In this document: positions 29,258 through 55,525 of the stretch, in pieces
How the letters are laid out: each line of letters begins with the position of its first letter
Position numbering within the stretch: the stretch's first letter is position 1
DNA from: Vanrija pseudolonga
Lineage: Eukaryota; Basidiomycota; Tremellomycetes; Trichosporonales; Trichosporonaceae
DNA length: 64,000 bases
Direction: 5' to 3'
Assembly (NCBI RefSeq): GCF_020906515.1
Contig: NC_085849.1
Coordinates: 4,402,001 to 4,466,000 of the forward strand
Translations under genes and position numbers: made by a program
Notes under the pieces: model-generated
Told to the model about the DNA's origin: nothing
What the model saw: only the letters and a program-made list of their open reading frames with translations
Databases searched by the model: none

Positions 29258-32019
29258 GCGTGCCGACCACCGACCGCGGACCGCACATCGACCGACCGAA
29301 GTTATCTACGGTGCACTTCGCTGCATTCATAGTTATCTTGGACCGTGAATGGAGTAGCAGCACGCCACTACGTTCGGTCAGAGTGTATCAGCTCGGTCGG
29401 TGATTGCTAGCCTGGTCGTGTCGACAGTGCCACAATCACGGCGAGGTCGGAGGCTCGCGATAGGAGAAAACTGGGTCATGCATGTCGCTGAATAAGGTCC
29501 TGGGTCTGTTGTTCTGCTCGATCTCGTTCCTCCCGTCGTACTTGCTCGATCAGCGCGCTGCTCTGCTCTTGCTCTCCGCGCAGACGTCGAAGGACACCGA
29601 TGCTGACATCGGCATGAGTGTGCCACGAATTTTCATCACCCAGAATTTTTGTGCCGACCGATCGAGCAGCGTCGTCGTCGACATCGACGACCAGCCACCG
29701 CGTGCGTGCAGTGCGCGGCGCGGAGCAACGGCATGCTGCGCGTGCACGCGTGTGTGTGCACGCTCGCGAACAACCATCTTGCGTACCTTTTGGGGACGGT
29801 CACCAGGAGCACACCGCACCCAGTACGAACAGCAGCGCAGTGCCTGTCGGCAACCACATAATCAGTGTCGGCTATGTATACGGGATTGGTGCCAGGCACC
29901 GCACACGACCGATTGCACCCAACGTGGGGGCCCTGGGTTCGTCATGAGGGTGTCACCGTCAGCGTCGTTATACATAGGAAGGTTGGTGGGCAGTGCAGCG
30001 TGAGTAGTGAGCATGCGGTGCATCGCGGAGTGGTGGCTACGGGGTGGTTCGAGCAGAGTGAACAGAAGAGGGACGGGAGGGGAAAGAGACACACGAGTGA
30101 GACACGTCGAGAGACCCCCTCACGAGTCCGACTCACTCCTCCGCACCCCGCACCCCGCACCTCGACCCATCCCCGACCTTCCTTCGCTGCTACCCCACTG
30201 CACCTCCCCGATCAATAGATAGGCCATGGGCCAATAGTCCGCGCAGTGTTCCCACACGCCGCGGCACAACCAACGCCTCGAAGGTGTACGGCATCGACCC
30301 AAGATTCGATTCATAGCGTGTCGCTTTCAACGGCACGCTCGTCTACGAGTGGGCAAGCTGGGCGAGCAAGCAGGCACAAGTCACCTGCCTGCCTGCTTTG
30401 GCTGCTTTCTCTCGCATGGAACGTTGATCGGGGATGGGCAGTGAGCCGAACTGAACTCACTAAGACACCTGGAAACTCATGACGTCGCATTCCGCCCCGC
30501 GCGCTAGTGCCACGCTGGTTGGCCAAACCCCACTGGGCCCCGGATGAAGCGGAGGCTCGCGAGCTAGCAAGCAAGTATTAGCGCCTCGACAGACCACATG
30601 ACTGCTGCCTGCTCCTTTCTTGACTGTGTCAACGAACGCCGCATGTAACGCTCCTCGGCTGTCGTCGTCGTCGTTGCCCGACGCCCGACGCCTCACGCAC
30701 CCTACAGAACGCCGCAAACCATACCACCCCAGTTTTTTTTTTTTGGTATCGAGCCGCACGCGCGCGTGCACAGCACACAGTGATCGATCCACAGCGAGTC
30801 CACGAGCCTCTCTGCTTGCTGATCGCGATCACCCCGCGTGCCGGACACACCTGCTCCGGCATCGGCGTGACGTGCGCCACTTGGAGCGTTCCGCACACCT
30901 TGAGCTTAAGCGAGCGTGCACATATGTTGTCGTTTGGAATGCGGGGTAGTACGGGGTGCGGCTTTTAATAGTGGCTCGTAGATGTCAGTGCAAGGTCTAT
31001 CACTTCCCCCCCCGTTGTCGCTCGCTCGTTATCACTTCCCCCCTCTCAGCGGTGTCACACCGGGGCTCCGGGAGCAGAGCTACGTCGCCGCCGACCTGGT
31101 CGGGTGGTGCTGTAGGCGCAGCTGACTTTGTGGGTGGCGGTAGTTCGGCTCCCACCTCGGCGCAGCATAGGAGAGCAAGTGCGCCGTCGGCCGCCGACAA
31201 GAGCGGTTCAAGCACCGTAGAGGAGGCTGGTCGTCCGCTCCGGCCGAAAGTAACTGCGGCTACAGCCAGCTCGGCGCACACCGGGGCACTCGTCGCCTCG
31301 CTCTATGGTCGGAGAATGGATGGAGCGAGTGCCGAGACCACCGAGCCAGCGTGCGGTATGCCGCTGCGTCGGTGAGCCTTACATCCAGCCCATCGCGCAG
31401 AGGATAGTCATCCTCCCCTGGCACGGCGAGCAAACGGACCAATGTCAGCTGCCTGCTGGGGGTCACTTGTCGAGTAATCCGCCACTCACTCGACGCTCCA
31501 CCACACCGTGGCCTCTGGCTCCGGTGACTGAATGTGCCAGTCAGCTGCGCGTGGATCTGTCCACGAGCACGAGCGCACGAGCGAGCGACCCCAGCAGCGA
31601 GCGGCGTACCTCCGAGGCAGACGTGGTCTGGCTGGCTGGCTTGGCTTGGCATGGCGCTCTGGTCCGCTCGTGGATAGTATCTTCTTACTCAGCAGATCCA
31701 TGGCGTCCATGGCGAGGACTGACCACTCTGACGGTGTGACGATGCTGGAGCTGCTCTTGGGCTCTGGCAACCTCCCGTGCTCCGACTAGAGCCTTGGAGC
31801 CCTTGTCTTGTCACCGGTTCGGAGCAACCGGAAGGAGGGGGACTGACGTCTGTCTGTCGCGGTAGTGTGTCGATGGGGAGTGGCGACAGTCCATGAGATG
31901 ACCGGTATAAGACGTCCCCCGTCCCACTGATAGATCCATGACAACGCCCAGCAGCGCTGACCTGGCAACGAACGACACGCACTGAACTAAGCCTGCCTGC
32001 CCAGACACGCACACACGCC
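29258..32019. other. 2.8 kb region without a supported gene
   Basis: This stretch lies between the PhzF-like and opsin-related genes. Open frames overlap on both strands and show no domain or splice-supported structure. The best of the poor candidates is around 30956-31375 (Ala/Ser-rich). A T run lies at 30733-30744. A TATA-like TATAAG near 31905 lies about 115 bp upstream of the opsin-related start. Confidence 0.3.
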
Positions 32020-33259
32020 ATGTCCCCAGTCTTCAGCTACCTCGCCGCGCGCGGCAACGACGCGCTCCAGTCCAACCCTTCTACGGGGGCCGACATCCGC
32101 CTCACGACCAACGGGAGCAGCTTCCTCTGGGCCATTTTTGCCCTCGTGGCTGTGTTCCTCTTGGGTATCATGTTCTGGACTACCCGCGTGGCGCGCGGCG
32201 CGAGGGTGTGGCACCATCTCGTTGTGGTGAGTGTCGTCTTCTCCCTCGCTGCCGGCCCTTCATGCCGCGCGCGATCGCACTCGCTACCGGTCGTGCTCGC
32301 TGACCCTTGCCCAGATCAACCTCACTATCATGACCGTCGCATACTTCTCCATGGCGTCAAACCTCGGCTGGACGATCGTGCGCTCCGAGTTCGGCCACTA
32401 CCAGGGCAAGGGTCTTGAGCGCCAGGTGTTCTGGGTCCGAGTAAGTGTGCCGCGAAAGCCGTCCTATGGACGGTCCCTTATGTACAGTACTCTCCCAACA
32501 CACAATCACCTCGCCCGCGCCGCATCTGCTAACACACACACCCAGTACGTCGACTGGATCCTCTCGGTCATCTTCCTGATCCTCCCCGCCACCCTCGCCT
32601 CGCCGCTCAACCTGTCCGACACGCTCGCGACCCTCTTCTGGGCGGTGCTGACCTTCACCCTGCGCCTGGTCGGCGCGCTCACGCCCAGCACGTACAAGTG
32701 GGGCTTCTTCACCATGAGCCTGTTCTCTAGCTGGGCTCTCCTGGCGTACCTCTTCGTCCCGATCCGTCGCGGTGCCGCGAGCCTCGGCGGCGACTTTGCC
32801 CGCCTGGCGACCACTTTCGCCGGCGTCGCGGCCTTCTTCCTCGGCATCCTGTACCCTATCGCCTGGGCGCTCGCGGAGGGCGGCAACGTCATCTCCGTCA
32901 CCTCCGAGATGGTGTTCTACGCCGTCCTCGACATCCTCTATCGCCCCGTGTTCCTCTTGCTCTTCCTCTACCAGATCGCCGACATCGACACCCACGTCCT
33001 CAAGCTCAACGCCGGCAAGTACACCCTCGACGGCGGCGAGGCTGCGTTCCCGTCCTCCACCGTGCACGAGCACAACGAGAAGGCACTCCGCATGCCCCAC
33101 TTCAAGAAGGTCCTCCCTCGCCGCGGCGCGCACGACGCGCCCATTTCTGAACCGGTGCCCGTAGCCGCGGCCCCGACGGCCACGACTGCCACGACTGCCA
33201 CGACTCCCAACCCGCCGCGCCTGTCCGAGGCGACGGTGCACGAGCAGGCGTCTGCTTAA
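32020..33259 (+). CDS. opsin-related seven-helix protein lacking the retinal lysine (Hsp30/Mrh1-like)
   Basis: A 348-aa seven-helix membrane protein in exons 32020-32226, 32315-32440 and 32546-33259, phases agreeing. Homology to microbial rhodopsins shows in helix C (RYVDWILSVIFLIL, Asp114 at the proton-acceptor position) and helix G (MVFYAVLDILYRPVF). In bacteriorhodopsin helix G carries the Schiff-base Lys in LDVSAKVGF; the aligned residue here is Arg244, so covalent retinal binding is not expected. The residue aligned with the proton donor Asp96 is Pro. This places it with the opsin-related proteins of fungi (Hsp30, Yro2, Mrh1), stress-associated plasma-membrane proteins without light-driven pumping. 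The tail is Ala/Thr/Pro-rich and charged. It converges with the next gene over 153 bp. Confidence 0.88.
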
Positions 33260-33412: not shown

Positions 33413-35080
33413 CTACCTTGTTGCCTTCTCCACTGCGGCCGCCGCTGGCTCGTCCCCGCACCCCGCCTCAATGTCGTCGGCGACACGCCGGCTCCACTCC
33501 TTGCGGGTGTACACGTCGGCGCCGGCGATCTCTGGCGCGTTGTAGATCGCGCCGGTGATCGTGATCCACAGCGTTGCGCCGCCGACATACAGGAAGTGGA
33601 GGATGACCTGGGCCGACAGGAACGCTGCGATGACTTTGAACGCAGGCGAGCGGAGCTCGGCAGCGAGCACGATCGTCGAGGTAGCGAACACGCCGATCGG
33701 GAAAGTGAGGGCCCAGAGGCCGACGGAAAACTTGCCAGGGCCGAGGAGGCGCCAGTCCTTGCGCCACTGGTCGAGGAAGAGCGCCACGGCGATAGTGTAC
33801 CACAGGAGCGCGAGGCCCCAGAGCACGAGGCCGGTGAGCACGCACCCGGCGTAGATGGCGTCGGCAATCCTCTGCGCGCCCTCGGCCTCAGTGAGTCCAG
33901 GGATGATGGGGAAGGAGTACTTGTACGCGAGCGTGCGGACGCCGACGCCCATGGAGATGATGCCGAACGCGCCCTGGCCGCAGGGCCCGAGGGGGAGGAA
34001 CACGGAGGCCAGAGCGGCGGGTGCAGGCGGGCCCTGCATCGCCGCGCGGTAGATCCACAGCGTGATGATCATGAGTGCGGGCGGGACACCAGTGCCCCAG
34101 ATGACGAAGGAGCAGAGGATGGTGGAGCGCGCCAGGCCGGCGTTGTACGGCGCGAGGGACTGCGCCACGACTGCGCCTGACGCAGCCACGACGACTGTGC
34201 CGACGATGGGCAGTAGCCAGGTCGGAGCGAGGGATGCTGGTGTCTGGCTTTGGCGCGTGAAGCTGTTGGGGGAGGGCGGGTGTTAGCCGCTGCAATGTGC
34301 CAATAGTTGCCGAAACAGCCGCCTGCCATAATCTTCTTGGAAATCCTGCCTCGTCCATATTCGGAGTTGGCCGTCCACAGCAAAAACAACCACCACCAGA
34401 CACTCACAGAACAAAGATCATGCCAAAGTTGACGAGCACGGCGAGCAGGACGTTGACCCACCACAGGCCGAACGCGGCGTATGCCCATCGCTCGCCCCAT
34501 GCTTCGACGCAGACGAAACATACCATGTTCTGCGGTGGTCAGCGGGGTGGCTTGGAGACACTCCGAGTCGGAGTCGCCCGTGGGGCGGCGGCGCACTCAC
34601 AACAATCGTGCTGAAGCCCATCGGCATGCAGCCCCAGAACATGCTCGCGACGTTGTGCTTTGCGACGGTGCAGAACAGCCCGTGGTAGATGGTGTACCGG
34701 AGGATATTTGAGATGGTGAGGATCGAGAAGATGATGATGTTGAGCACGAAGACGATCACGCCGAGGTACTGCAGCCAGTGGCCCTGGTACGGGTAGTTGT
34801 GCAGCAGGATGGACGTGATACCTGTGCCCATCGTGATGGCATAGAAGCTAGGCGGGGTGTGAAGGACGGCGTGGAGGATGGCCTGGCGGAGGCCCCGGCG
34901 TGGGGAGGCTGGGGGCGCTTTGGGCGGCGGGGTGGTGGACGAGCCGTTCGACGAGCGCAGCGGCGCCGTGCTCGGGGCGATGGTCGAGTCCGAGGTCAGC
35001 GCGGCAGTTACTGGGCCGCTGATGACTGGTGTCGTCGGCAGGGGGATGGTCCGCTCCGAGGCGGGAGAGGGGGATGTCAT
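33413..35080 (-). CDS. TDT/SLAC1-family anion transporter (Ssu1 sulfite pump or malate permease type)
   Basis: A 483-aa multi-span protein in exons 35080-34601, 34529-34408 and 34262-33413 (transcription order), phases agreeing. A Ser/Thr/Pro-rich cytosolic N-terminus precedes FYAITMGTGITSILLHNYPY, a typical first helix of the tellurite-resistance/dicarboxylate transporter family. Other family marks are MFWGCMPMGFSTIV and the later FVIWGTGVPPALMII and GQGAFGIISMGVG. The fungal members are Ssu1 sulfite exporters and Mae1 malate permeases; sequence alone does not separate them here. The neighbourhood of taurine-dioxygenase-type genes, which release sulfite, makes a sulfite role attractive, as inference. 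The ATG at 35080 was chosen because upstream in-frame sequence is not membrane- or domain-like. Confidence 0.85.
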
Positions 35081-36959
35081 GGTGTCGTCGTCGTCGTGTT
35101 GTCGCACGCGCGTGTCGTATAGTCGTTCGTTAGAGACCGAGTGGTCTCGGTGTGCAGTGTGGGCTTTTATCACGCAGTGCAGGACATGACAAGCCGAGTT
35201 ATAACGCGCCGGGACGATGGAGAAATAATGCGCAAGACCAAGTCGAGTCACGCCGCGTGCCGCCCCGCCACTCCTAATGATGCGCGCAGCGCTTCGTAGT
35301 AGTGAGAGATCCCGAGATACGTGGGTGCGTGGGTGGCAAGTGGTGGTTCGGAATACAAAGACGTCAGTGGCATAACATCCTCCAGGGTGGGCAGAGCTCA
35401 TTCGGAGTGGTGGGGCTCTCGGGATCTCGGGTGTGTCGGTTACTACGGGGACTGTGGTCCAACTCGTGACCTGCATTTGCCACACGGTCGCGGGGTGGTC
35501 AAACAGTGCTTGGGCGCTTGTCCGGTTGGAAATCTATGCGCGGAGAAGGGAGTGAAGGTGCGCAGGACAGTATGCATGCCTAGGTTTGCGTGTCTCGCAG
35601 TGCCGTAGGCATGCTCACGCCGTCGCCCCGGACTTCGGTTTCTTCGTTGGCCTGGTCTGGCGCAAACCCAACTGGCGCACTAAGTCGCCGAATGGAAATG
35701 AACTAGCGCGCACCTTTGTTGTGGTGATGCCTTTCGAATGATTGCGACAGCCCTGACGCACACGACGTGGCGAAGGTGATTGTCGAACGGCCCGATGCAT
35801 TGGTACCGGGGTACACTCGGGGCGGATCAGTCTTGCCTGGTGGGCTGTGCAGCGAAGGGCAAAGGATGGGCACTATTACAGTACTTTGCCCACCCACCGC
35901 TGCGAGCAATATCGCAATATGTAAGCCGCGCTGACACTCCCTTCTGCGCGATCCACATGCACAAGAGCTTTTGACCACACGACCTCGAGCACCGGCATGC
36001 CGGCGCGCAGCACTCCACCCTGTGCGTGGCGTGCACGTGGCTCCAGCTTGGCGGCTGTCTCCGAAGGCAACCTCGCTGAGCACCGGCGCACCGGCTACCG
36101 GCAAGGATCAAAGGGCATCCACTGCCCTGAGATGGGGTACTCAGCATCCCAGATTCCACCCAGGCTCGTTTCGGAGCAGCCAGGCAGGCAGTGCAAGCAG
36201 TGGACGCGCCTCGGTGCACTCCTCGCCGCAACCGAGCCAGCCGCCGCCAAGCCGGCCGGTGTCGGATTGTCGCAATAGGGCCGCACGAAGCGTTCGTATA
36301 GGCGCCGGGTATGACGTGCGCTGGCTGCTCTGCTGCGGCTGCTTGTCCGCCTGGGTTCCGGCACGTGTCGCGTGTGGGGGGTTTGACTGAGCTAGCCGGC
36401 GCGAGGATTAGATACAGATACATCGTAACGGTGTCACTGTCGTCCATGTAGCTCGTGTCGCGGAGTCGCCGCTGCAGACTGCCTGCCTTCTACAGTATCC
36501 ATGCATGCGTCGTCGTCGTTTACTACGTATTGTGCACTTTAATATAACGATTTTGCTCGCCTTTGACGGCTATGAGTGGCTATGAAGGAAGGTGGCGGAA
36601 GCAAAATTCAACCTTCCTCGTCATGACCCTCGGCGATTAGCATTGAAGTCGTGATCACTTTTGTCGCTTTTTTTTGGCAAGTGGCGACGAGGACGAGGGC
36701 TGCCTCACTGCTGCTGCCTTGCTGACCACTGACACCTCACTCACGCACGCAGGCACGCCTCGACGCGGGCCGTCATGCTCTGGCTCGCCTCGCCTAGCCC
36801 CCCCTTGGGCCCCTTGGCCATTGTCAAAGCCGGCACGATGGCAGCAGCTCACGCCAAGATCCTGACTGATCACGACGACGACCAGTGTTACCTCTCTACA
36901 CCCGATAGCAGCCATACCTAGCAACACGCTCTTGACATGGTACTATCCACAACTACACG
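35081..36959. promoter_or_regulatory. 1.9 kb divergent promoter region
   Basis: This separates the anion transporter (minus) from the second Zn2Cys6 regulator (plus) and so contains both promoters. An AT-rich TTTATC word (GATAAA on the minus strand, near 35166-35171) lies about 85-90 bp upstream of the transporter ATG. A frame of about 200 codons on the minus strand (35827-36447) is Cys/Arg-rich with no recognisable domain and is not called. Confidence 0.35.
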
Positions 36960-39849
36960 ATGAGCAGCAGCGGCAGTAGCAGCACCACCACGACGACAAC
37001 AGATACAGCACGGGCCGCGCGCTCGCCAGCGTGGGCGACGGCCACGCCGACAGCGACAGCAACTACGGCAGACAGCCCGGCGGCGACTTCGGCTATGTGG
37101 CGTGTTGGCCCAAGCACGAAACCCAGCACGACAAACTACACTACTACGCCATCGCACTCGACGAGCACGTCGCCACTGCCTGCGCGGTCGCCGCCGCCAG
37201 CGCAGCAGCCGCCATATCCCACCCCTCCGCTCACCAGCGCCACCCAGAGCAACGGCGACAGCGAGCGCGGCGACGAGAAGCCAGCAACAACATCAGCAGC
37301 ACCCTCTGCGCCCTCTGCGCCGTCCGCTGCTGCCTCTTCCCATCACGACGAGGAGCACGACGAGGTGCTCGACGACAACGCCGCCCCGGCGTCAAACAGT
37401 GCCGGCTCGCCCTCCCGCCCGGGTACCACAGCGACTTCGCCCACGACCACCTCGCCCCCAGCCCTGAGCACTACTACTACAACCCCTACCGCCGCCGTGC
37501 CCATCGTCAAGCCCAAGCTACGCGCGTCCCGCGCCTGCAGCAGCTGCAACCGGCAAAAGCTCCGCTGCGACGGGCAGAACCCGTGCGGGCGGTGCATCGG
37601 CCTCGGGCAGGCAAAGGTGTGCGAGTACCTCCCCTCTCTGCGCGGCAAGACGCGGAAAAAGAAGGGCGCGGTGAGCGCGGTTGGCGGTGTCCCAGTTCCG
37701 GCGCCCGGCGCCGTGGGAACGACGGCGGCCACAAGCGCCAATGGCAGCAGCGGGGTCACGTCCCCCTCTGAGCCGCACCTGGCGGGCAGCAAGCGCCGGC
37801 GCTCGCTCGAGGGCTTTGCCCGCGAGTACGAGTACGAGTATGCGCGCTGGCATGCTTTGGCGCGCAACGGCGTCGGCGCGTGGGGCAGCAATGGCGCCAG
37901 CGGCAGCAACAGCGAGCGGGAGCGCGCCGAACGCGACCACCGCGACCGGGACCGCGAGCAGCGCGAGCGCGAGCAGGCATACTACGTCGCTGAGCGGGAA
38001 CGTGACGCGCGCGACCGCGCAGCCGAACACGACCGCGAGCACGAGCGCCGGCAGCGCTCGCGCGCAAACTCGGCCCACTCGGTCCACTCGGCGCACTCGG
38101 CGCACTCTCCGCGTTCCCGCCAGCCGCCGACCCTGACGCCGGTTCAGCGCCTCACACCCCTGCCACCCACCAGCGGGGGCGACGCGCTCAGCATCCTCGC
38201 CGAGGCGAGCGCCATCAGCCCCGTCGAGCGGGTGCGCGACGTGCGCAGCGGCGACCTCCGCGAGCGGGAGCGCGGCGAGCGCCGGCGCGAGTGGTCCCCC
38301 CGGCCCGAGGTCGCGCCGGTCTCCGACGCGTGTGAGGCCAAGCACCTCCTCGGCTTCGTCAACGCCCATGAGTGAGTCCAACCACATTTCTTTCTTCGGG
38401 CACGCAGCTAACCCCCGACGCAGGGCCGAAAACCTCTTCAACCTCTACGTGCGCTACTTGAACCCGCACCTGCCCGTGCTCGACACGAGTACCCCACAAG
38501 GCGGTGTCGCGATCCACGTCGCGCGGCGGTCTATCGCGCTCTTCAACGCCGTGTGCTGCGTGTCCGCGAGAGCGTTCAACGTGGTCCTTTGGGACCGGCT
38601 GAAGGCTTTCGCCGCGGGCGAGGCGTCGCGCCTCGTGCTCGACCGGTCGTTCGAGGCCGTGCAGGCGCAGATGGTGTACGCTACGTGGAACCTGCCGACG
38701 GAAGACGGCGCCGACGCGGCGTACGTGCGCTTCGGGCTCGCCAAGCGGCTCGCAGAGGACATTGACCTGCCTGCCGCGATTGCCAGCCCGCTGCCGTCCT
38801 GGGCGAAGCGGAGCATCGCGCGCACGTCGCTCCTGCTGTACGCTGCCGACGCGACGCTCGCGCTGGAGCTCGGCAAGCCCGTGCTCGTGCGCGACGTGTC
38901 GTCCTGGGCCGCGCAGCTCGACGGCGGCGGCGTCGACGACCTCCTCGTGTCCATCTTCTCCGAGTGGGCGCACGCGCTCACGCGCGCCGTCGACAGCCTG
39001 CGCGCGCAGGCAGCCACCTGGTCGACCAACACCTCGCCCGCGGCGGGCGTGTACGCCGCCGCGATGCCCGATATTGTCGCCACGCACCGCGTGCGCTTTG
39101 TGGCGTGGCGCGAGCGCGCGGAGCGCAGAGTCGAGGCACTACACGAGCAGTACCCCGATTCGGCGGAGCACGCGGGGCTGGTCATCGCCCTCGCGCGCCT
39201 GTACGAGGGCTACGCTTCTCTCGTGCTCGACGCGTACGTGCTCGAGAGGGCGCTCTTCCTCCGCCGCAGGGGCGAGGGCCTTGCCGAGTTCCAGGCGTCG
39301 GCGATTCGCCTGATCGAGCTGTTCGACATCGACCTCAGCAGCTCGCACCTCCGCGGCGCGCCAGACACGGTGTTCACGGTGCTGACTTATGCCGCCGTGT
39401 CGCTCGTGCACAGCGTCGCCTTGGGGGGACGGGACAGCGAGAACAAGGCGGCCGTGCTCGCGCTTGCTAGGCGCGCAAGCGACGTGCTCGCCCGCGCGGC
39501 CATGACGCCTGACCATCTCCCGGCCGCGCAGAGCGTCTTCCTCTCGCGCCTCATTGCGAAGGTTGGCGCCGACGCCGTGTCGGCCGAGGAGGCGAGCGAC
39601 ATTGCCACCCTGGCAGGCGGACAGCCGGACGAGGCGGCGCACGCGCGCGCACTCTTCGAGCCGACGACGTCCATCTGGCCACCGCGCCCCGCTGCCGACC
39701 CGAAGCGCGCGCGCGCGACACTCGCCGGTGCAGAGTACCCCGCACCTCCGCCTGCGCTGCCGCGCGCCGCGCTCGGCTTGGGCGTCGGGAGCTTCCGCCG
39801 GACCGGCCTCGCCGCGCGCTCTGGCCTGTCCGGCCTTGGCGGGTGGTAG
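36960..39849 (+). CDS. Zn2Cys6 transcription factor with long low-complexity N-terminus
   Basis: A 945-aa regulator in two exons, 36960-38371 and 38424-39849, phases agreeing (His-Glu at the junction). The first 190 residues are Ser/Thr/Ala/Pro-rich. The zinc cluster is ACSSCNRQKLRCDGQNPCGR plus CIGLGQAKVC, with the first Cys at aa 193, and is followed by a basic stretch (GKTRKKK). Next comes an Arg/Glu/Asp-rich, probably coiled segment (RERERAERDHRDRDREQ type). The second exon carries the regulatory region (NLYVRYLNPHLPVLD, then RFGLAKRLAEDIDLP), as in many yeast and basidiomycete C6 activators. It stands between the anion transporter and the first OPT gene and is the best candidate for a local regulator of the transporter/dioxygenase genes. 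That role is inference. Confidence 0.87.
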
Positions 39850-40837: not shown

Positions 40838-43423
40838 ATGTCCCCCCGGCGCGACATAGAAGAGGAGGCGTACGTCCCGACGCTGCTCTCGTCGGACGCC
40901 AACGGCGCGAGCGGCGTCCCCGCTCCAGGCTATTACGACGAGAAGGCCGTCGACAAGGCGTCTCTCTCGGACAAGAACGTAGACCTCGACGACGACATGG
41001 AGAAGAACGTCCCCGTCGCGAGCGACGACGGCGACGAAGCCAAGCCCCTCAACCCCGACGGCATCGACGAGCGTGTCGAGTTCTCCCCGCACGGCGCATA
41101 CAAGCTCGACTACTCTGGCCCCCAGTCCCCGTTCCCAGAGGTCGCGGCATGCGTGTCCCTCGAGGACGACGAGACGGACAGGGTGAACCACTTCCGCATG
41201 TGGTTCCTCCTGCACATCTTTGTGATTCTGTTCGGGTGCGCTAATACGTTCTTCGGGCAGCGATGGGTGCGTTGGCTTTGGGAGTGAGGTGGAAGAAAGG
41301 CTCGCTGACGCTCGCTTTGTAGCCGTCCCTCTCGCTCCATTACGAGGTCGCGCAGCTCCTCGTCTTCCCCATCGGTAAAGCGTGGGAGCGCTTCGTGCCG
41401 CACTGGCGCATCGGGTTCGGGCGGTTCAGCTTCGCGCTCAACCCGGGCAAGTTTAACAAGAAGGAGCATACCGTGATTCTTTGTGTGAGTGGCGCCACAC
41501 CGCCGTTTCCAACTCACACCCTCAGTGCGTCTCCGTCACGCTCAACATCTACCGCTCGACCCTCGTGACCCTCTGGTCGCCCAAGTTCTTCGGGCTCAAC
41601 TGGTCCCCCGCGTGGGGGTTCCTCTGGCTCCTGACGTCCACAATGCTGGGCTTCGGCCTGGCCGGCATGGCACGGCGCTGGCTAGTGTACCCGGGTAACA
41701 TGATCTGGCCGAAGACGCTTGCGTCGGCGGTGCTCATGCGCGCGCTGCACGAGGAGAACAACTTCAAGGGCAAGGTCCACGGGTGGGGGCTGAGCAGGTA
41801 CCGCTTCTTCCTCGTCTTCGTGCTCTTCTCCTTTGTGCTCTTCTGGTTCCCCGGCTATATCGCTACTTGCCTCAGCAGCTTTGCGTTCCTCACCTGGATC
41901 TTTCCCAACAACCAGAAGGTCAACACCATCTTCGGGACCAAGACTGGCCTGGGGCTCCTGCCCATCTCGCTCGACTGGACGATGTTCAACTATGTCGGCT
42001 CGCCCCTGTCCACCCCGTTCTACATCAACGCCAACTGGTTCTTCAACATCGCGCTCTTCTACCTCATCATCGCGCCCATCCTGTACTACAAGGACGTGTG
42101 GTTCTCCGGCCATCTCCCCATGTTGTCGTCGGGCCTCTTTGACAACACGGGTGCGCCGTACAACGTCTCGCGCGTCCTCGACCCCGTGACCAACCGGTTC
42201 AACGAGGCGGGCTACCGCGCCTACTCGCCCATCTACCTCTCCATGTCGTACACCCTGTCCTACGCCCTGTCCTTCGCGGCAGTGTCGTCCGTGCTCGTCT
42301 ACACCGTCCTGTACAATGGTAAGGAGATCATCTCGCGCCTCCGCAAGAGCGACAAGGAGACAGAGGATGTGCACAAGCGCATGATGAACAAGTACATCAA
42401 CGTCCCCGACTGGTGGTACCTCGTACTCGACATCATCATGCTGGGTGCTGGCATTTTCCTCACTCGCTTCTGGCCGTCCGACCTCCCAGTGTGGGGCTTC
42501 ATCGGGTGCTGGGTCGTCGGTATCATCCTCATCATCCCACAGGGCATGCTCGAGGGCATCTCCAACACACGCGTGTACTTTGAGATCTTGGCCGATCTGA
42601 TCGCAGGATACCTCTGGCCCGGCAAGCCGCTGGCCAATCTCTACGTTGACTGTTTCGGCAACCAACTCGTCAAGGTCGCCCTCGACTTCTCCACCGACAT
42701 GAAGCTCGGCCAGTACATGAAGGTCCCGCCCAGGACCCTCTTCTTCGCACAGGCCTACTCTGTATTCCTGGCTGCTGCTTCCCAGACTGGCGTTATTCGC
42801 TGGATGCTGGGTCACATTGACGACTTTTGCAGCGTGAGTGGCGGTTGTGGCACCTGCCTCCAACTAACCTCCTCCCCTCCCAGCCCAGCCAGAAAGGTCA
42901 CTTCATCTGCGCATCACCTCGCGTTCGGTACAATAGTACGATTATTTGGGGCACAGTGGGACCTCGTATTCTCTTCGGGCCCAACTCAGAGTACCGCCAT
43001 CTGTACTGGTTCTTCCTCATCGGGCCCGTGGTGACGGTCCTCGTGTGGCTGGCGTGGCGCCGCTGGCCCAACTCGTTCCTCGCCAAGGTCAACATCCCGC
43101 TGCTGTTCAACTCGGCCGGCTGGATCCCGCCAGCCACGACGACAATGTACAGCCTGACCTTCATCCTGGGGTTCCTGTTCAACTTTGTCATTCGGCGCCG
43201 CTACTTCGCCTGGTGGAAGCGGTACAACTACCTCCTCCAAGCGGCGATGGACACGGGCGTCGCCCTCGCCATCATCATCATCTTCTTCGGGCTGACGTAC
43301 CACGGCATCAAGATCAACTGGGCGCTCAACACCATCGGCACGACGAACATGGACGCGAAGGGCACGCCGGCGTACAAGGTCGCCAAGGGGTCGCACTTTG
43401 GCCGAGGGCCGGGCGAGTTCTAG
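40838..43423 (+). CDS. OPT-family oligopeptide/glutathione-type transporter (copy 1)
   Basis: An 812-aa plasma-membrane transporter in exons 40838-41266, 41323-41484, 41526-42833 and 42884-43423, all in phase. The acidic N-terminus (about 130 aa) is cytosolic. The hallmark OPT loop [10 protein letters not shown] starts at aa 183, followed by about 14 hydrophobic segments. Other family marks are [33 protein letters not shown] and a terminal HFGRGPGEF. Yeast and Schizosaccharomyces members (Hgt1/Opt1, Pgt1, Isp4) are proton symporters for glutathione and tetra- or pentapeptides. Substrate cannot be read from the sequence. It is followed on the same strand by a TauD-type dioxygenase, and a related OPT lies 8 kb downstream. 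Confidence 0.93.
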
Positions 43424-44343: not shown

Positions 44344-45645
44344 ATGGCCCCCATCGCGATCCCCGACGCCCAGCTCAACGCCGAGCTCGACGCCCTCGTC
44401 GAGCAGGTCAACAAGGCCAACCTCGGCAAGAAGTCGTCCATCGGCTTCGGCTTCGCCCCGCCCCCTCCCTCCACGCTGCGCAGGTACCACAAGGCCGGCG
44501 TCGACCTGTCCCAGGGCTACCCGTTCTACCTCGAGCCCGACACCCCCGAGTACGACGAGGCGCAGAAGCGCGGCGCCAACCCGCGCGACGGCAAGCCCTA
44601 CGCCGACCCGGGCCTCAAGGCCGACCCCGAGAAGAAGGCGCTGTTCGGCGCCGCCAAGAGCGTCAACCAGCTGACCAAGCACATTGGTGTAAGTTGGGTC
44701 TAGGATTAGGCAGTGTCCTCGTACTGACCCACCTCGCAGACCGAGCTCGTCGGCATCCAGCTCAAGGATCTCAACGAGCAGCAGCGTGACGAGCTCGCCC
44801 TCCTCGTCGCGGAGCGCGGCGTCGTCTTCTTCCGCGACCAGGACATCTCGCCGCAGGAGCAGCTCGAGCTCGGCGAGTACCTCGGCGACGGTGCCGTCGC
44901 CAACTCGTCCACGGTCGCCTCGGTGCCCGGCACGAACGGCGGCGTCAACATCATCTGGGAGACGGCGCGCACGTACAAGCGCTCGTTCCGCCTCCCGTGG
45001 CCCGAGTACGACGGGTACCGCGGCCACGGGTGGCATGTCGACGGCCTCGGCCGCTACATCCAGGCCGGGTACACCCACCTGCACCAGGACCACGTGCCCG
45101 ACGACTCGGGCGACACGCTCTGGGCGTCCGGCTACGCGGCGTACGACATCCTCTCGCCCGGCCTCAAGAAGGTCGTCGACGGCATCACGGGCATCTACAC
45201 CCTCGGCACGGAGAAGGACGAGAGCGGCCGCACGATCCCCAAGTTTGTCCATGCGCCGCTCGTCCGCACCCACCCCGTCACGGGCTGGAAGAGCCTGTAC
45301 CTCTCCGACCGCGGCCTGGTCGGCTTCGAGGACTGGGACAAGAACGAGAGCGACCACCTCCTCAAGTACCTCATCGACGTGCTCCAGGGCTCGCCAGAGA
45401 TCCAGGTCCGCTGGAAGTGGACCCCCGGAGCCAGCGCCATCTGGGACCAGCGCAACACTGTCCACGCCCCCGTCCGTGACTGGGAGGAGGAGCGCCACGG
45501 CACCCGTGTGCTCTCGCTCGCTGCCCCCGCGTACCACGACCCCAAGTCCAAGTCGCGCGGCGAGGCCCTCAACATTGAGGGATGGCTCTCGCCCGCCTGG
45601 ACCGGCGAGGCTTACATCAAGTCGGGCTACCAGCTGCCCCCGTAG
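44344..45645 (+). CDS. TauD/TfdA-family Fe(II)/2-oxoglutarate dioxygenase (copy 1)
   Basis: A 416-aa cytosolic enzyme; exon 1 is 44344-44688 and exon 2 44740-45645, in phase. Family marks: LTKHIG-TELVGIQL, RGVVFFRDQDI, then the iron motif HGWHVDG (His214-Val-Asp216), the distal iron ligand in WDQRNTVHAPV (His357) and the 2-oxoglutarate-binding Arg371 in GTRVLSL. The full facial triad is present, so activity is expected. Family members hydroxylate taurine, alkyl sulfonates or aryloxyalkanoates next to the hetero-atom; for sulfonates this yields an aldehyde and sulfite. It is longer than bacterial TauD (about 280 aa) because of an N-terminal extension (FYLEPDTPEYDEAQKR) common in fungal members. 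Substrate is undetermined. Confidence 0.92.
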
Positions 45646-45888: not shown

Positions 45889-46111
45889 AAAACTCATCGA
45901 CCTAACCGCCAGACATGGTTGCACCCGCATGGCGCGGGTGGCCGCCCAGCAGGATAACCCTCTGGGCACTTGGCGGCCGAGTTGCGGTCGGGCCGGGCAG
46001 CCCCCCACACTCTAAGCAACAGAGAGGGGGCGAGGGAGCGAGGCCCACTCTTTTGCATACAGTGGGATGAGTATGCATGCACGTCAGCCAACATCAATCT
46101 TCAGGGCGACT

Positions 46112-47949
46112 CTAGAATGGCCGCTCTGCGACGCTGGTGATGCGACACAGGTGTCGCCGCTGATCTGACGGGAAGTTTGTCGTCGCAGTATGCTGGGTCG
46201 AGCGGTTGTCCCATACAATGACAGTGTTGGGCTCCCAGCGCACGCGACAGGCAATGTCCTGCGCGCGCGCAATGTGCCCAGTCAAGAACTGGATGAGGTT
46301 GTCGCTCTCCTCCTTGCGATACCCTATAATCTTGGTAGTGTTCACCTCGTTGACGAACAGGATCTTCTTCCGCGTGACGGGGTGCGTGCGCACCACCGGG
46401 TGGACGTTACGCGGGGGAGTGCGCCGGCTGGGCGAGTACTGGAGGAAGTGCTCCGCCTGCAGACCCTCAAGGCGCTTCTGGAACTCTGGCGAGAGGCGCT
46501 CGTACGCCTCGGTCGTGGAGGTGAACAGCGTGTCGCCGCCGCCGTTGCGCGGCGTCTCGAGCATGAACAGCAGAGTCAGGCCTGGCGGTTGTAGCTCGGA
46601 CGACCCATCCGTGTGCCAGGTCACCGAGCTCAGCTTGTTGTCGATGACGTTGACGGCGCGCTTGATCGACGAGTCGCTGGGTGTGGGTTAGCTACAGCAG
46701 ATATCCGATACCCACTGCGCGTCCTGGAAGATGGAGTAGTACTCTGGCAGGCCTTTAGGGTGGCGGTCGGCCGGGTGGAGGTAGTGCGGGCCGTGGTATC
46801 GCACAAACTCGAGCTGCTGCTCCGCCGAGAGGTCGGCAAAGTCCTGGTCGCGGAAGACGACGACCCCGCGCTGCGCGACGAACAGCGCGAGTTGGTCTGG
46901 TGTGAGCTGGTAGACCGAAATGGACAGCTCACCTCGCTGTGTAGAGTCGAGCTGGCTCAGCTGGATCCCGCTGATCTCGGTGCCGATGACCGGTGTCAGC
47001 TCGGTGCGCTTGACTCCCGGCTCGAGGAGGAACGGCAGCGCCGGGTCGGCTGAGAGTCCGCGGTCGACGTGCTCGAAGGGTACCGGCTCGGGGAAGACCT
47101 CGTTCGGGTCGAGTGGGTCGGGCAGGAAGCGGGGGCTGGTGGGTGAGCACGGTCAATGGTGTAGGTACCCACTACTTTGGCGCTGAGGACGACTGGCTCA
47201 GCACCGCGGCGTCAATCTTGGCCTTGAGCCGGTTGATGGAGTACCCCTCGTCCCAGGTTGACCGCCAGCTCTCCCTGTCGGTGATGGCATCAAGGTAGGT
47301 TCTGAAACGGCGAAACTCCGGGTCGTTGGCGATGGCGGCGACGGTGAGCCCGCCGGCCGGCGAAATCCCGTGCCGGCCATACGCGTCGAGACGGCCAATG
47401 AACGGCGCGACAAGGATGTCGGCGAGCGTAAACCTAGAGCCGAAGAAGTAAGGCCCCTCGGCAGGCAGCAGCGCCTGGATGGTGCGCACGGCGTCGAGCT
47501 GGCGGCGGAAGTGGAGCTGCCGTTCAGGAGCAGTCACGGCGCGAGACGTGATAGGGAGGAGGTCGGGGTCAAGGGCACGGAGAGTAGCCTGCACAAAGGC
47601 GGTCGAGCGTGCGCGTTCGAGCGCGCCGCGGGGTTGCAGCGCAGGCGCCAGCGTCGCGATGTACTCGACAATGTCGGCCGACTCGGAGATGTACACTGCC
47701 GGCGAGCCGACCGCGAGGACGGGCACCTGGCCGGCGGGGTTGGCCTGCAGCAGCCAGTCGGGCTTGTGGGCCAGGTCGACTTCCGTGACGGTGTACTCTA
47801 GCCCCGACTCGGCGAGGGCGATGAGCACGCGGTGGGCCCAGCGGCCGCCCTGCGAGTGAGTTAGGACGACCAGCTGGCCAACTCACCTTGTTCACGATGG
47901 CGGTGAGCTCGGGGGTGGACTTGGGAGTTGTGGCGGATCCGTCAGGCAT
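46112..47949 (-). CDS. glutathione S-transferase fused to TauD-family dioxygenase
   Basis: Read as a single gene of 561 aa: exons 47949-47887, 47849-47176, 47135-46933, 46896-46716 and 46676-46112 (transcription order), every phase agreeing. Residues 1-245 are a complete GST: WAHRVLIALAESGLEY, NPAGQVPVL, the ESADIVEYI helix, and a helical domain with GPYFFGSRFTLADILVAPFI. The usual CPW-type catalytic Cys is replaced by GGRW. From residue 246 follows a complete TauD domain: LPDPLDPNEVFPEP, IGTEISGIQLSQL, RGVVVFRDQDF, WHTDGS (His395, Asp397), distal His536 and Arg552. The joining intron (47136-47175) takes out the apparent GST stop, and no ATG precedes the TauD part, which argues for fusion. 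If the intron is retained, a GST alone would be made. It shares a divergent promoter with an MFS permease. Confidence 0.8.
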
Positions 47950-48631: not shown

Positions 48632-50300
48632 ATGTCTGATTCGCTTGAAGAACGCCAGGCGCCCGTCGTGCTCGCGCAAGAGGATGAGCCCCTCGACCTC
48701 TCGCCCAAGCCGGACGACGCGGCGCGCGATCGCCGCCTGCGGTTCCGCCTCGACGCCATCCTCATGACGTACACTGCGCTGTCGTACACGCTCAAGTTCC
48801 TCGACCAGTCAAACTATACATATGCGTACTCGTGAGTACGGAACCCAGGGCGGCAGACTCGGCTTGAGGAGCCGGTGGTGCGAGACTTGGCCTGCCCTGG
48901 AGATATCATCTAGTACACACTGCTGACCTTTCCAGCTCGGGAATGCAAGAAGACCTCAAGCTCTACGGCAACGAGCTGACCTGGATGGGCACCATCTTCT
49001 CCATCGGCTATGTGAGTTTGCCCTCCTCCTTGCCCGTCCTAACGCTCCAGATCCTCGGCACGATCCCCACGCAGATCCTCCTGACGTACATCCGCCCCTC
49101 GTACTTCCTCGGCACGGTCGAGATGATCTGGGGCGTCTTCGTCCTGTGTATGGCGGCAGCAAAGCACGTGAACACGATCTACGCGATGCGCTTCCTCATC
49201 GGCCTCTTCGAGGCGTCCGCGTACCCGGGCCTCATCGCCGTCCTGGCATCGTGGTACACGCCGCGCGAGCTGGGCAAGCGCGTCGCCATCCTCCAGTCGG
49301 CTTCGGCCCTCGGCGCAATGTGGGCCGGATACCTCCAAGCTGCGGTCTTCGCGGGTCTGAACGGCGCGCACGGCCTCCCCGGCTGGAAGTGGGGCTTCAT
49401 CGTCAACGGTGCGATCACGATCCCGGTTGGCCTACTCGGATACTTCTGCCTGCCCGACTCGCCGGCCAACTCGCGTGCGCGCTGGTTGACACCCAAGGAC
49501 ATTGAGTACGCCACGATCCGGATGGCCCGCGTCGGGCGCGCTCCCGCCAAGGGGCTGAGTCGGGCGACCTTGCGCCGCGTGTTTGGCTCGTGGCACCTCT
49601 GGGCCTTTGCCCTCCCCTACGGCTTCTGGGTCATCAACGGCCAGGCTATCGGCTTCCTCATCCTGTGGCTCAAGTCCACCAAGCGCTACTCTATCGTCAA
49701 GATCAACCTCATCCCTACTGGAGGCTACGCGCTTGAGATCGTCACAGCGATTGGGTTCGCCGCCTTGTCCGACTACCTCGGCGTGCGATGGCCGGTCATT
49801 GTGTTGACGGGGTTGATTGGACTGTTCAGCGCCATTGTGCTGACCGTGTGGAACGTGTCGTTTGGGCTCCATTTCGCCGCTCATCTGCTCATCTTCTCCA
49901 CCATCGGCGGCTCGGCACTTATCCTAACCTGGGTGTCTGAGCTGGTCGGCGACGACGCCGAGGCGCGTATCCTCATCGTGGCCATCCTCAACACGCTGGC
50001 CTATGTGTTCAACGCCGCCTTGCCTTGTGGGTACTCCTCGTCGGATTGTCCACTGACCACACAGTCGCCATGTACCCCGCCAAGCAGGCCCCTCACTACA
50101 AGTGGGGCTACCAGATCAGCACCGCGTTCTGGATTGCGGGTGTGGTCATCATCACGGGCATTGGCATCTACGAGCGCAAGACGTGAGTTTGGCGGCAGCG
50201 TGGACACTGCTGATCCGACAGGCGGGGCAAGGCCAAGTCAAACACGGTCGAGGATGCCCTCGTCGAGTCGGCGTCGTTCGAGTCCGAGGACAAGAAATAA
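48632..50300 (+). CDS. MFS permease, Dal5/ACS (anion:cation symporter) type, copy 1
   Basis: A 482-aa twelve-helix permease in exons 48632-48831, 48936-49011, 49051-50026, 50065-50182 and 50222-50300, phases agreeing. Typical of the allantoate/nicotinate/sulfonate branch: FLDQSNYTYAYSSGMQEDL (helix 1 and following loop), LTWMGTIFSIGYILGTIPTQ, RFLIGLFEASAYPGL, then SWYTPRELGKRVAI. The small 39-nt intron at 49012-49050 also keeps the frame if retained. Known relatives carry allantoate, nicotinate, biotin, vitamins or sulfonates. It is transcribed divergently from the GST-TauD gene, so a substrate of that enzyme is a reasonable cargo (inference). Confidence 0.9.
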
Positions 50301-51500
50301 GGGTGCGGTGTTCGAGTGTAGATGTCTTTGGGGTTGGTTTCGTTCTTGGTCTAGCTAGATGCACACACATGGTTGCGGGAGTTATCGCTGCCGTCAAGTC
50401 CGCTCGGCACCGGATAACCGGGTGCGCGGGTCGTCAACGTCTCACGAGATTGTGCAATGGCCCGATGGTGCTGTTCTGAGCCATCCGTAGCCACATCTGA
50501 GCAAGGTCATGTGAGTATTTTGGGAAGCATGCAACAACCGTGAGCCGCGCAGCCCACACGGCAGCACCGACCGATTGGCAGGGGCACAGGCCGGCACAAC
50601 CCATGCGATGACTCCGGCGGGGCGTGCGTGGGGTATGTGCTACGATATCGCTACCACGCGGTTCCGAGGCGATTGGTCGAATGGGGGGTGTATGTGTGTG
50701 TGTGTGGGGGGGGGGGGGGGGGGGGGTGAGCGGCGAGAGTGATGGAGAGAAGCAGTAGACGTCGAAGCCTGGCAGCTGGCTGGGCGCCGCCACTTGCTCG
50801 TGATTGTGCTTCACCTTCGCAGCCCACCAGTGTCAACCTGACGCCGGCATACCGCGGCGACGGAGGATGAGACGCGCCGAAGACGACATATCACCGATGG
50901 AGGACCAAAACAACTCGGCGGGTCCAAGCGCCACATGTCGTGCTCCGTTCGTTCCAATGTCGATCCAGTGGAGACCATGCCGCCGCTGCACATGGTGCGC
51001 GGACATACTGCGCGCGGGAGTCAACGCCAACCACAGTGAACAAGCCGACGGGGTCTGCGGAACTCGAAAGGAGCGTGGAACAGCGATGCATCGAGCCACT
51101 CGTGCACGACTTGTCCGCCTTGCCGGAAATCGTAATCGCAAGGGCCATGTGCCCTCCAGTCTTGGCCACTACAAGCGTCGAGTGTAGCACTTCTCAAAGG
51201 GCCGGCCGGGGGAGATACCATGCCACACGAGAGGACAAGCTCCGTGGCAGCAGCGGGTCACGCGATGCACAGGCACGACTGCCCGCTGCTGCACCCACAG
51301 CCCGGCGGGAGGTCGCAAAAGAGGCCGAGATGGGCGACAGACAGCACGAGGGGCTTATCGGTCAGAGCGCGCGTCCGGGCGCGCGTTTGAGATTGGGCCG
51401 GTCGCGAGCGAGCAAGGGGCTATATATCGCGGTTCCGGCATGCCTTGTGGCCACCATTGCAACTGCGACTTGTCGCTTACCAGACACAGTCGTTATCATC
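50301..51500. other. intergenic region with poly-G run and TATA box
   Basis: 1.2 kb holding the 3' end of MFS 1 and the OPT2 promoter. A GT run followed by about 20 consecutive G lies at 50692-50727. A TATATAT word at 51421-51427 is about 75 bp upstream of the OPT2 ATG. No gene is supported. Confidence 0.4.
50706..50727. repeat. homopolymer G run
   Basis: An uninterrupted run of about 20 G directly after a short GT dinucleotide run. It may be length-variable or mis-sized in assembly. Confidence 0.7.
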
Positions 51501-54238
51501 ATGGGTACTGACAACTTTGAGAAGCGCGTGAGCGTGTTGTTGGTCGGGGGCAGGCTGACGGGGGCGCAGGTCGACGGCGACGTCGAGGTGCTCCCGCCTA
51601 CCGACAAGCTCGATGCCGAGGCCGTTGCCGACCTTGCTACGGGCGAGTAAGTGGCGCCGCTCACATTCCCTCCGGTCCACCACTTACCACCGCGCGCAGC
51701 ATCACGACCCGCGCCGACCTCCTCGCGGTCGAGGACAAGCTGCACCTCATGCCACCGGAGCGTGCGCGCAAGGTCATAAAGCAGGTGTACGACATGCACC
51801 GGTACGACCAGAACTTCAACGGCGAGCTGCTTTCGCGCATCGAGACGTTCCTGTTCGGCAGGGACGACCTCGAGGGCGAGAAGCACGACGAGCTCGTGCG
51901 CGAGATGCAGCTCGAGGCGCTGCTCGTCACTGAGAACTCGCCGTACGCCGAGGTCCGCGCCGTCGTGGATAACTGGGACGACACGACCCTGCCGAGCTTG
52001 ACCTTCCGCGTGTGGTTCATCGGACTCATCTTCGCCGGCGCCGGCGCTTTCATCAACCAGCTCTTCTCGATCCGCCAGCCGGCCGTCTACGTCTCGAGCA
52101 ACGTCGCGCAGCTGCTTGCGTGGCCTGCGGGCAAGTTTGTCGAGCGTATCACGCCCCGTGGCACATTCCTCAACCCCGGTCCTTTCAACAAGAAGGAGGT
52201 GGGTAGCGCCGGCACAGAGTTCCTCGCTGACGACACAGCACATGCTCATCACCATCATGGCCGCCGTCGCGTTCAACACCCCTTACACCAGCTACATTGT
52301 CTTTGCGCAAGCCATGCCGCAGTACTTCAACCAGTCGTACGCTAGGAAGTACGGCTACCAGATCCTCAACTCGCTCGGATCCAACTTTGTGGGGTACGGT
52401 CTTGCTGGCCTGACGCGCCGGTTCATCGTGTTCCCGTCCTTCTGTGTGTGGCCGAGTTCGCTCACCACCCTGGCCATCAACAAGGCCTTCCACTCGGACG
52501 ACGCGGGCAGCGTCCCTGGCCCGTTCAACCGCATCTACTCGATCTCGCGCATGAAGTTCTTCCTCATTGCATTCGTTTCAATGTTTGCATACTGGTGGTT
52601 CCGTGAGTGGCGAAAACTTGGTGGCGGACGGATGCTAATTTCACGGCAGCCGGCTTCATCTTCACCAACCTCTCCGTCTTCAACTGGATGTCCTGGATCG
52701 CACCGCACAACCAGGTGTACAACAACCTCGTGGGCTTCAACAACGGGCTCGGACTGTTCAACATCTGGCCCACGTTCGACTACAACATCCCCTCGTGGAA
52801 TGGCTGGACGCCACTCTCGATCCCCCTCTTCGCCGTCCTCAACCAGTTTGCCGGGCAGTGCCTCGGCGCTGTGATGATCCTGGGGATGTACTACGGGAAC
52901 GCCTTTGACACGGGCTACTTGCCCATCAACTCAAACAAGCTCTACGACAACAAGGGCAAGAGGTACAACGTCACGCGCATCATCGACGAGAACACTAACT
53001 TTGTCGAGGAAAAGTACCAAAAATACTCGGAGCCTTTCATGGCCGCGGGCAACCTCACCATTTACTTCTGGTTCTTCGCATGCTACTCAGCTACCGTTTC
53101 CTACACCTTCCTGTACCACAAACTCGAGGTCGTGAACGGCTTCAAGGGATTCTGGCGTATTGTCAAGAAGCAGTTCAACCGCAACAGCGAGGAGCAGGAC
53201 GAACAGGAGGAGGACCTCGGCCAGGACATCCACTTCCGACTCATGAAGGCTTACCCTGAGGTTCCTGAGTGGTGGTATTTCATTGTCCTGTGCACTGCGC
53301 TCGTTGTCGGCTGCCTCGGTGTCGCCGTCTACCCGACCCACACCACCCCCGCTGTTGTCATCTACGGTATCCTCATGGCTCTCATTTTCGTCGTCCCCGT
53401 GGGCCTCATCACCGCTGTTACTGGTGTTCAGATCACCATGAATGTGCTTGCTGAATTTATCGGTGGTGTCCTCGCCTCTGGCGACGCCCTGGCAGTCAAC
53501 TACTTCAAGATGTACGGCTACATCACCACTGCCCAGGCTGTGTTCTTCGCATCCGACCTCAAGCTGGCCCACTACACCAAGATCCCTCCCCGCCACACCT
53601 TCTACTGCCAGATGGTTGCCACTCTCGTGTCCACGTTCATTTGCACAGCCATCTTCAACTTCCAGATGAGCTTCCCCAACGTGTGTACCTCGGACGCCTC
53701 CTTCGGCATGACCTGCCCAGGAGAGAACACCTTCTTCTCTGCGGCGGTTTTCTGGGGCACGCTGGGTCCTACCAAGGTCTTTGGACCGAGGGGTAGATAC
53801 AAGTCTCTCCTCATTGGCTTCCCCGTCGGAGCAGTCCTGCCCTTCATCACCTTCTATGCTGCCAAGTGGTTCCCCAAGCAGAAGTGGATCCGCAACATCC
53901 ACCCCGTCATGTTCTGCGCCGGCGGTCTCCTCTGGTCGCCCTACAGCATGTCCTACATGTGGCCCATGGTTATGATCACTTGGTTCTCCTGGGGCTACAT
54001 CAAGCCCCGATACCTCGCCTTCTGGTCCAAGTACAACTACGTCCTTGCCGGTTCCTGGTCTGCGGCCATTGCCATCGCTGCCATTGTCATCTTCTTCGCC
54101 CTCGAGATCCCCAATGTCAACCTCGACTGGTGGGGAAACAACCCCCTGCCCGACGACGCTTGCGAGTCGGTCGCGTGCAGGTACCTCCCTATTCCTGACA
54201 AGGGCTACTTCGGCCGCGCTCCGGGCACGTATGCCTAG
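51501..54238 (+). CDS. OPT-family oligopeptide/glutathione-type transporter (copy 2)
   Basis: An 851-aa transporter in exons 51501-51527, 51570-51646, 51700-52198, 52239-52602 and 52650-54238, in phase throughout. The hallmark NPGPFNKKEH starts at aa 193. Further family marks are FGYGLAGL-like VGYGLAGLTRRFIVFPSFCV, SYTFLYHKLEVVNGFKG, WWYFIVLCTALVVGCLGVAV and the ending FGRAPGTYA. The N-terminus is much shorter in acidic residues than copy 1, and the two copies differ widely, so they are old paralogues and not a recent tandem copy. The first intron (42 nt) keeps the frame if retained. The gene converges on a TauD-type dioxygenase only 148 bp away. Confidence 0.93.
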
Positions 54239-54386: not shown

Positions 54387-55525
54387 TTATGCCACTGGTT
54401 CGTCTCTGGCAAATGTTGGCTTGGCGCCGTAGGGAATAATACGGACCATGTGCCTCCGTGCCCCAGCTTCAAAGTCTGGAATGGCAGTGTGCGCCGCTGT
54501 GCGCTGCATGTCAGTTCGCGTCCCTCTCCCAACCCACCTGGTCCCACACGACAACTGTGCCCGGTGCCCATCGAAGACGGCAGCTAAAGTCGAGGCTCTT
54601 GATGTGGTTGTGGAGGAACCCGAGCAGGTGGTCGCTTTCTTCCGGCTTGAAGCCCTTGACTGTACGCCCCATGGCGGGGTTGACGAAGAGCGCGGGTTTT
54701 CGAGTCACAGGGTGCGCGATCACAAGCGGGTGGGTCGCATTCACGGCCTCCTTGAGTGCCCGCTCGGTACCGACTCGCGCAACCTCGCCCCGCGACGCCG
54801 AAGTATGCTCAACCTCGAGATTGGCAAGTGTGGCGCGGTACGCTGGCGACAGCGCCTCATACGCCGCAGTAAGCGACGTGAAGGCCGTATCTCCCCCTCC
54901 GTTTGCCGGACTCTCAAGCACCCAGAAGAACGTTGTCGACGGCACGTTCTGCGTAAACGTCTGGTCGATGTGCCAGAAGTCGTAGGTCGTGTGCGGGCCT
55001 AGCAGGTCGCGTAGTGTGCCCCTGGAGGAGTCGGATCAGATCAGATCCCGACCGCACCGGTCCTCACTCACACTTTCTCGTCGGCATACACGACGTGGAA
55101 CTCGGGTCCCGTGCCCTCGGGGTATCCCATAGTGGGATGCTTGTGCAGTGGGCCGAAGTGGGCCACCAGCTCCCGCTGCCTCTCGGGCCCAATGTCCGCA
55201 AAGTCCTGGTCGCGCTGGGTGTGAGTGACCGCGTCGCCATCCACGGACTTACGAAGACGACTACCGCCCGCTCGGCAGCAAGCAGCGCCACCTGGTCCAG
55301 CCCCTCGGATGTCAACTGGCTCAGCTGCACCCCCGACACCTGGGTCCCGATGCGCGGCGTGATGGCCTCGAACGTCGTCGAGCCGTTATCCAGCGCAGGC
55401 AGTGACGGGTCAGCGTGCCTCCCCCGCTCGTCGGCGTCGAACAGCGGCAGATCGATGGGCACGGTCGACCCCTCGGGCCGCACGGGCAGATACGCCGGGT
55501 ACAGCGGTTCGGTGCGGACTGGCAT
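54387..55525 (-). CDS. TauD/TfdA-family Fe(II)/2-oxoglutarate dioxygenase (copy 3)
   Basis: A 338-aa enzyme in exons 55525-55253, 55214-55072, 55021-54538 and 54503-54387 (transcription order), phases agreeing. Marks: N-terminal LYPAYLPVRPEG extension, PRIGTQVSGVQLSQL, VVVF-RDQDFADIG across intron 1, the iron motif FWHIDQT (His156, Asp158), NGGGDTAF, then WDQ-RTAAHTA with distal His305 and MVRIIPYGAKP with Arg321. The facial triad and the 2-oxoglutarate Arg are all present. The last intron is only 34 nt. The closest relative in this window is the dioxygenase part of the GST fusion gene (same NGGGDT and HPVTRK motifs), with copy 1 more distant. It is transcribed head-to-head with MFS permease 2. 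Substrate is unknown. Confidence 0.92.

Follow-up and report, generated by a model that had tools for sequence, protein, structure and literature searches.

A glutathione transferase fold fused to a TauD-type dioxygenase in the basidiomycete Vanrija pseudolonga

We found a two-domain gene in a 64,000-nt stretch of the Vanrija pseudolonga genome (contig NC_085849.1, positions 4,402,001 to 4,466,000; hereafter the window). Judged from its sequence, this is one intact gene on the minus strand, whose predicted product is a single-chain protein that combines an Omega-like glutathione transferase (GST) fold, a short linker and a Jlp1/TauD-type Fe(II)/2-oxoglutarate dioxygenase. Its five exons (47949-46112; Table 1) join in phase to 1689 nt, which encode 562 amino acids plus a stop codon and contain no internal stop. 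This bears out what an earlier note on this DNA had proposed, namely that all five exons keep phase and that removal of an intron joins the GST in phase to the TauD domain. All three homologs whose N-terminus is complete share the start motif MPD, and the exon junctions at introns 1, 3 and 4 are consistent with the homologs. All four introns begin with GT and end in AG, with CAG at the 3' end, and 35-39 nt is the commonest intron-pattern length class in the window: 13 donor-branch-acceptor patterns of this length occur on its two strands, whereas 20 first-order Markov sequences averaged 0.7 (the pattern demanded a GTRRGT donor, which intron 3 with its GTGAGC would fail).

The two halves meet at intron 2, where the earlier note had placed a 40-nt intron (47175-47136, donor GTAGTG) overlapping an apparent stop of the GST frame. 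The intron is present, in phase and explains the stop, but it probably has another length. Both the 40-nt form and a 37-nt form with the donor GTGGGT are in phase, and the latter appears more likely, because its donor is more usual and because it keeps the Tyr of the junction motif PKYPRFLP, which is found in three of the four public fused homologs described below (P0001, P0002 and P0003; P0004 has LSHPRFLP). As this intron splits the Tyr codon into TA and C, the unspliced sequence reads TA plus the G of GT, and a TAG thus follows directly after GST residue 246. Such an in-frame stop at the junction could mean that separate GST and TauD genes had been wrongly joined, and a standalone GST of Cryptococcus sp. 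DSM 104548 (IAR50_007265) indeed carries a locus tag adjacent to that of the fused gene in this strain; yet four public models of genes in other species show the same fusion, and intron 2 is usual for the window in length and splice sites. The TauD part, as the earlier note had seen, also lacks a start of its own: its first Met is residue 413, beyond the HTD (HxD) iron motif, so that its own frame offers no start that could be used. We therefore regard two wrongly joined genes as highly improbable. Alternatively, the gene could yield two products, a GST ending in SSSAPK upon retention of intron 2 and the fusion upon splicing. The phase-2 intron does place a TAG exactly past the GST domain, and two metagenome open reading frames (P0121, which matches the window GST at 91% over 192 residues, and P0125) finish at the same point, with ...APK at the intron 2 position. 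However, any GT intron that interrupts a Tyr codon behind its TA automatically creates a TAG, and open reading frames with this end are expected from a bacterial-style gene caller that halts at TAG, which makes a two-product gene quite unlikely.

The domain fusion is genuine and conserved, and the titles and abstract openings screened contain no account of a GST-TauD fusion protein. The earlier note, too, had known of no described enzyme with this architecture, but this genome is not alone in having it. With the full-length sequence as query, a search among 5.8 billion proteins (7999 candidates scored, 672 found, the best 120 of these 672 used) returned four proteins from other species that combine both domains in one chain, which is what the earlier note had proposed to look for. 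These four among the best 120 of 672 come from Cryptococcus and Kwoniella, and thus by genus from Tremellomycetes: P0001 from Cryptococcus sp. DSM 104548 (560 aa, 66% over 100% of length), P0002 from Cryptococcus sp. DSM 104549 (567 aa, 66% over 100%), P0003 from C. amylolentus CBS 6273 (528 aa, 62% over 100%) and P0004 from Kwoniella shandongensis (483 aa, 65% over 89%). Of the 120, the remaining 116 contain the TauD domain only and cover 53-64% of the query. When only the GST part was used as query (residues 1-245; proteins of ~309-983 aa; 7232 candidates), P0001-P0003 were the only proteins retrieved; the P0003 model has a GST C-domain that is ~32 residues short, and the P0004 model begins ~62 residues in. 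The TauD half of the window protein is 74-75% identical to those of the four fused homologs, and its GST half is 55-57% identical to those of three.

From the trees, the fusion likely arose once, though this is not proved, and a GST-only copy may have followed in Cryptococcus. In a quick tree that sets the five fused TauD halves beside four paralogs from the genome and 33 standalone fungal TauDs (out of 116), the fused halves group as one clade on a long branch (Shimodaira-Hasegawa-like approximate likelihood ratio test, SH-aLRT, 100), apart from the standalone TauDs and the paralogs; a long-branch warning applies to this tree. In two paralogs (L010 and L016), the site matching intron 2 (YP...LP) reads through without an intron. 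For the GST half, the genome offers no close paralog (its other two matches reach 36% and 35%), but standalone relatives exist in Cryptococcus: P0122 (C. floricola), P0123 (DSM 104548) and P0124 (C. amylolentus CBS 6039). P0123 is the GST with the locus tag IAR50_007265, one number off the fused IAR50_007266. These standalone GSTs nest within the fused clade (support 86/91), while a single clade of fused GSTs apart from them is not rejected (approximately unbiased test, p-AU 0.09).

The TauD half (Pfam TauD, residues 291-555, 2.8e-60, 204.9 bits, cut-off 27) has the hallmarks of the TauD/TfdA family, with the HxD...H triad and the 2-oxoglutarate Thr and Arg in all five fused proteins. In an alignment to E. 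coli TauD, H396, D398, H537, T424, R549, R553 and H355 are retained in 5/5 fused and 116/116 standalone sequences. Going by the residue roles in the E. coli enzyme, we take H396, D398 and H537 to be iron ligands and T424 and R549 to contact 2-oxoglutarate; R553 (E. coli R270) is presumably the sulfonate-binding Arg. The substrate pocket differs. At E. coli Y73, N95 and F206, which we assume to line the taurine end of the pocket, the window protein has D358, S392 and N487 and thus departs from a strict taurine dioxygenase. The Y73 position is Asp in all five fused proteins and Ser in 115 of the 116 standalone ones, the N95 position is mostly Ser in both groups (standalone 103/116), and the F206 position holds Ile (three), Asn (one) or a gap (P0004) in the fused proteins compared with Phe in 115/116 standalone sequences. 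As the standalone enzymes also lack Y73 and mostly lack N95, among these taurine-pocket changes only the loss of F206 and the Asp set the fusion apart. Further differences are Ser at the F104 position (5/5 fused; Tyr or Phe in 116/116 standalone), Gly at the V102 position (5/5 fused; Val or Ile in standalone) and Arg-His at residues 359-360 of the fused proteins. In total, 37 positions are invariant across the five fused proteins and shared by less than 5% of the standalone proteins (n = 116); several of them lie round the substrate pocket. The window TauD half is 48-54% identical to these standalone proteins. A changed pocket beside retained iron, 2-oxoglutarate and sulfonate-Arg residues suggests that the chemistry is of the sulfonate type but that the substrate would be another, more polar one.

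The GST half (Pfam GST_N_2 1.7e-17, GST_C_2 2.9e-9) has the N- and C-domains of an Omega-like fold. Omega GSTs have a catalytic Cys or Ser at the start of helix 1 (PMC5981210). This position is Gly (Gly23) in all four fused proteins that include the region, and residues 19-23 of the window protein contain no Ser, Cys or Tyr; the three closest standalone relatives have Ser. Pro64, Glu77 and Ser78 (the cis-Pro and Glu-Ser positions of the glutathione site) are retained in the same four of four, as is Asn20. The earlier note had stated that both domains keep their core motifs, which is the case for the TauD domain but not for the catalytic residue of the GST. It had also envisaged a bifunctional enzyme that handles a glutathione S-conjugate or sulfonate and channels the product; in such an enzyme, a catalytic GST would conjugate or remove glutathione and hand the product to the TauD half. 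The single chain, supported by four models from other species, and the TauD residues (5/5) agree with this idea, as do the retained glutathione-site positions, and some GSTs use catalytic residues other than Ser or Cys. Since the catalytic residue of the GST is gone, however, such a two-step channelling enzyme becomes less likely, and we consider it unlikely overall.

The neighbouring genes and frames (Table 1, all but the PhzC-PhzF-like frame) lie within ~13 kb of the fusion gene, save the far end of a bacteriorhodopsin-like frame (~14 kb). Two OPT genes flank the second TauD gene, the fusion gene and an MFS gene (41341-54100), and the three TauD genes in 10.3 kb would be expected by chance with a probability of ~0.001 for 26 random loci. 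Genome-wide, an OPT match lies within 15 kb of 3 of 27 TauD clusters (null mean 0.64, P ~0.03), a weak signal that rests on guessed contig extents and 37 of 71 OPT matches; exon merging here fused the second TauD gene with the fusion gene into one cluster. Some fungal OPTs transport glutathione. The SLAC1-family gene is the sole SLAC1 match in the genome and has motifs that, to our eye, resemble fungal Ssu1 sulfite exporters; it is possibly the sulfite exporter of a sulfur-scavenging cluster. Together, the OPT and MFS transporters, the two further TauDs and the SLAC1 gene fit sulfur scavenging. ATGRYRYCAT, which we assume to be a sulfur-regulator motif, has a single occurrence in the window (55605), distant from the fusion gene, and CACGTG is found 11 times compared with 32.7 expected. 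Single exons of the OPT, MFS and SLAC1 genes matched no solved structure by sequence. A bacterial promoter and terminator scan of the window gave nothing, as expected for a fungus, and ARAGORN (bacterial code) found no tRNA in it.

As side observations, the 24.9-Mb genome has ~28 TauD loci (41 exon-level matches merged), which in our impression seems many for a yeast-like fungus. OPT-like matches also lie near contig starts (C4:2613-4695 and C5:3618-5324); the latter has seven stops (4 TGA, 2 TAG, 1 TAA) and may be decayed or intron-rich.

Table 1. Exons and introns of the fusion gene, its neighbours and one further frame of the window
Feature	Position	Strand	Remarks
Exon 1	47887..47949	-	ATG start (47949); encodes the first GST strand (MPDGSATTPKSTPELTAIVNK)
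Intron 1	47850..47886	-	37 nt, GTGAGT...CAG; homologs run uninterrupted across the site
Exon 2	47173..47849	-	Bulk of the GST domain (GST_N, GST_C); Gly23, Pro64, Glu77-Ser78
Intron 2	47136..47172	-	37 nt (the more likely form), GTGGGT...CAG; phase 2 in Tyr codon; GST/TauD boundary
Exon 3	46933..47135	-	TauD domain, N-terminal arm
Intron 3	46897..46932	-	36 nt, GTGAGC...CAG; excision gives the RDQLAL of the homologs
Exon 4	46716..46896	-	TauD
Intron 4	46677..46715	-	39 nt, GTGGGT...CAG
Exon 5	46112..46676	-	TauD; H396/D398/H537, R549, R553; stop codon 46114-46112
Second TauD gene	44344..45645	+	Start taken as ATG 44344; one intron ~44689-44739; Pfam match
OPT oligopeptide transporter	41341..43288	+	Extent of family match
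MFS transporter	48632..50358	+	PF07690 6.3e-25; divergent from the fusion gene; putative ATG 48632, approximate exons
Second OPT transporter	51998..54100	+	Extent of family match
Third TauD gene	54514..55465	-	Intron-split; extent of matches
Additional MFS-type frames	56.3-60.6 kb
Zn2Cys6 binuclear cluster frame	36936..38372	+	PF00172 2.4e-7
SLAC1-family anion channel	33569..34861	-	~11 kb from the fusion gene
Bacteriorhodopsin-like frame	32231..33256	+	PF01036 6.2e-11; adjoins the SLAC1 gene
PhzC-PhzF-like frame	28084..29400	+	PF02567 3.4e-31

We consider it probable that the TauD half is a sulfite-releasing sulfonate dioxygenase and that the GST fold has been reused for the binding of a glutathione-like substrate or for dimerisation. 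The TauD half would hydroxylate the carbon adjoining the sulfonate and thereby release sulfite, as Jlp1 does. The GST half would have lost glutathione transfer and could bind the glutathione-like part of the substrate or, alternatively, chiefly dimerise and stabilise the enzyme. The neighbouring transporters may import organic sulfur, and the SLAC1 channel may export surplus sulfite. It counts against this view that the TauD half, by fold alone, matches a herbicide dioxygenase equally well. A more specific proposal, tentative and rather doubtful, is a dioxygenase for glutathione sulfonate or another gamma-glutamyl-peptide sulfonate, in which the non-catalytic GST would act as a covalently attached recognition domain and offer the glutathione part to the rebuilt polar TauD pocket, so that sulfite could be gained from over-oxidised glutathione imported by the neighbouring oligopeptide transporters. 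A conserved second TauD type that includes a fold for glutathione binding would suggest that a new class of sulfur source exists, and the fusion would be a case of a GST redeployed as a binding module for a different enzyme. The fusion also provides a hint at the substrate that can be tested, which most fungal TauD paralogs lack.

Among known systems, the sulfonate dioxygenases of fungi such as Saccharomyces cerevisiae Jlp1 (PF02668) share the iron triad, the 2-oxoglutarate Thr and Arg and the sulfonate Arg with the window protein, a likeness drawn through the 116 standalone TauDs rather than through Jlp1 itself; the window protein adds an N-terminal GST domain and the 37 fusion-specific positions. 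Jlp1 converts sulfonates to sulfite and an aldehyde (PMC5857272), and JLP1 orthologues of Basidiomycota adjoin a transporter gene (PMC5303821). E. coli TauD (1gqw, 1gy9, 1os7) has no GST domain, and its Y73, N95, F104 and F206 are unmatched in the window protein, in which S158/F159 are gapped. The fused proteins of Cryptococcus spp. and Kwoniella shandongensis, annotated as hypothetical only, have the same two-domain chain. The Omega GSTs of Trametes versicolor (1C, 2C, 2S and 3S) use a catalytic Cys or Ser, where the window protein combines a Gly at this position with a fused TauD dioxygenase.
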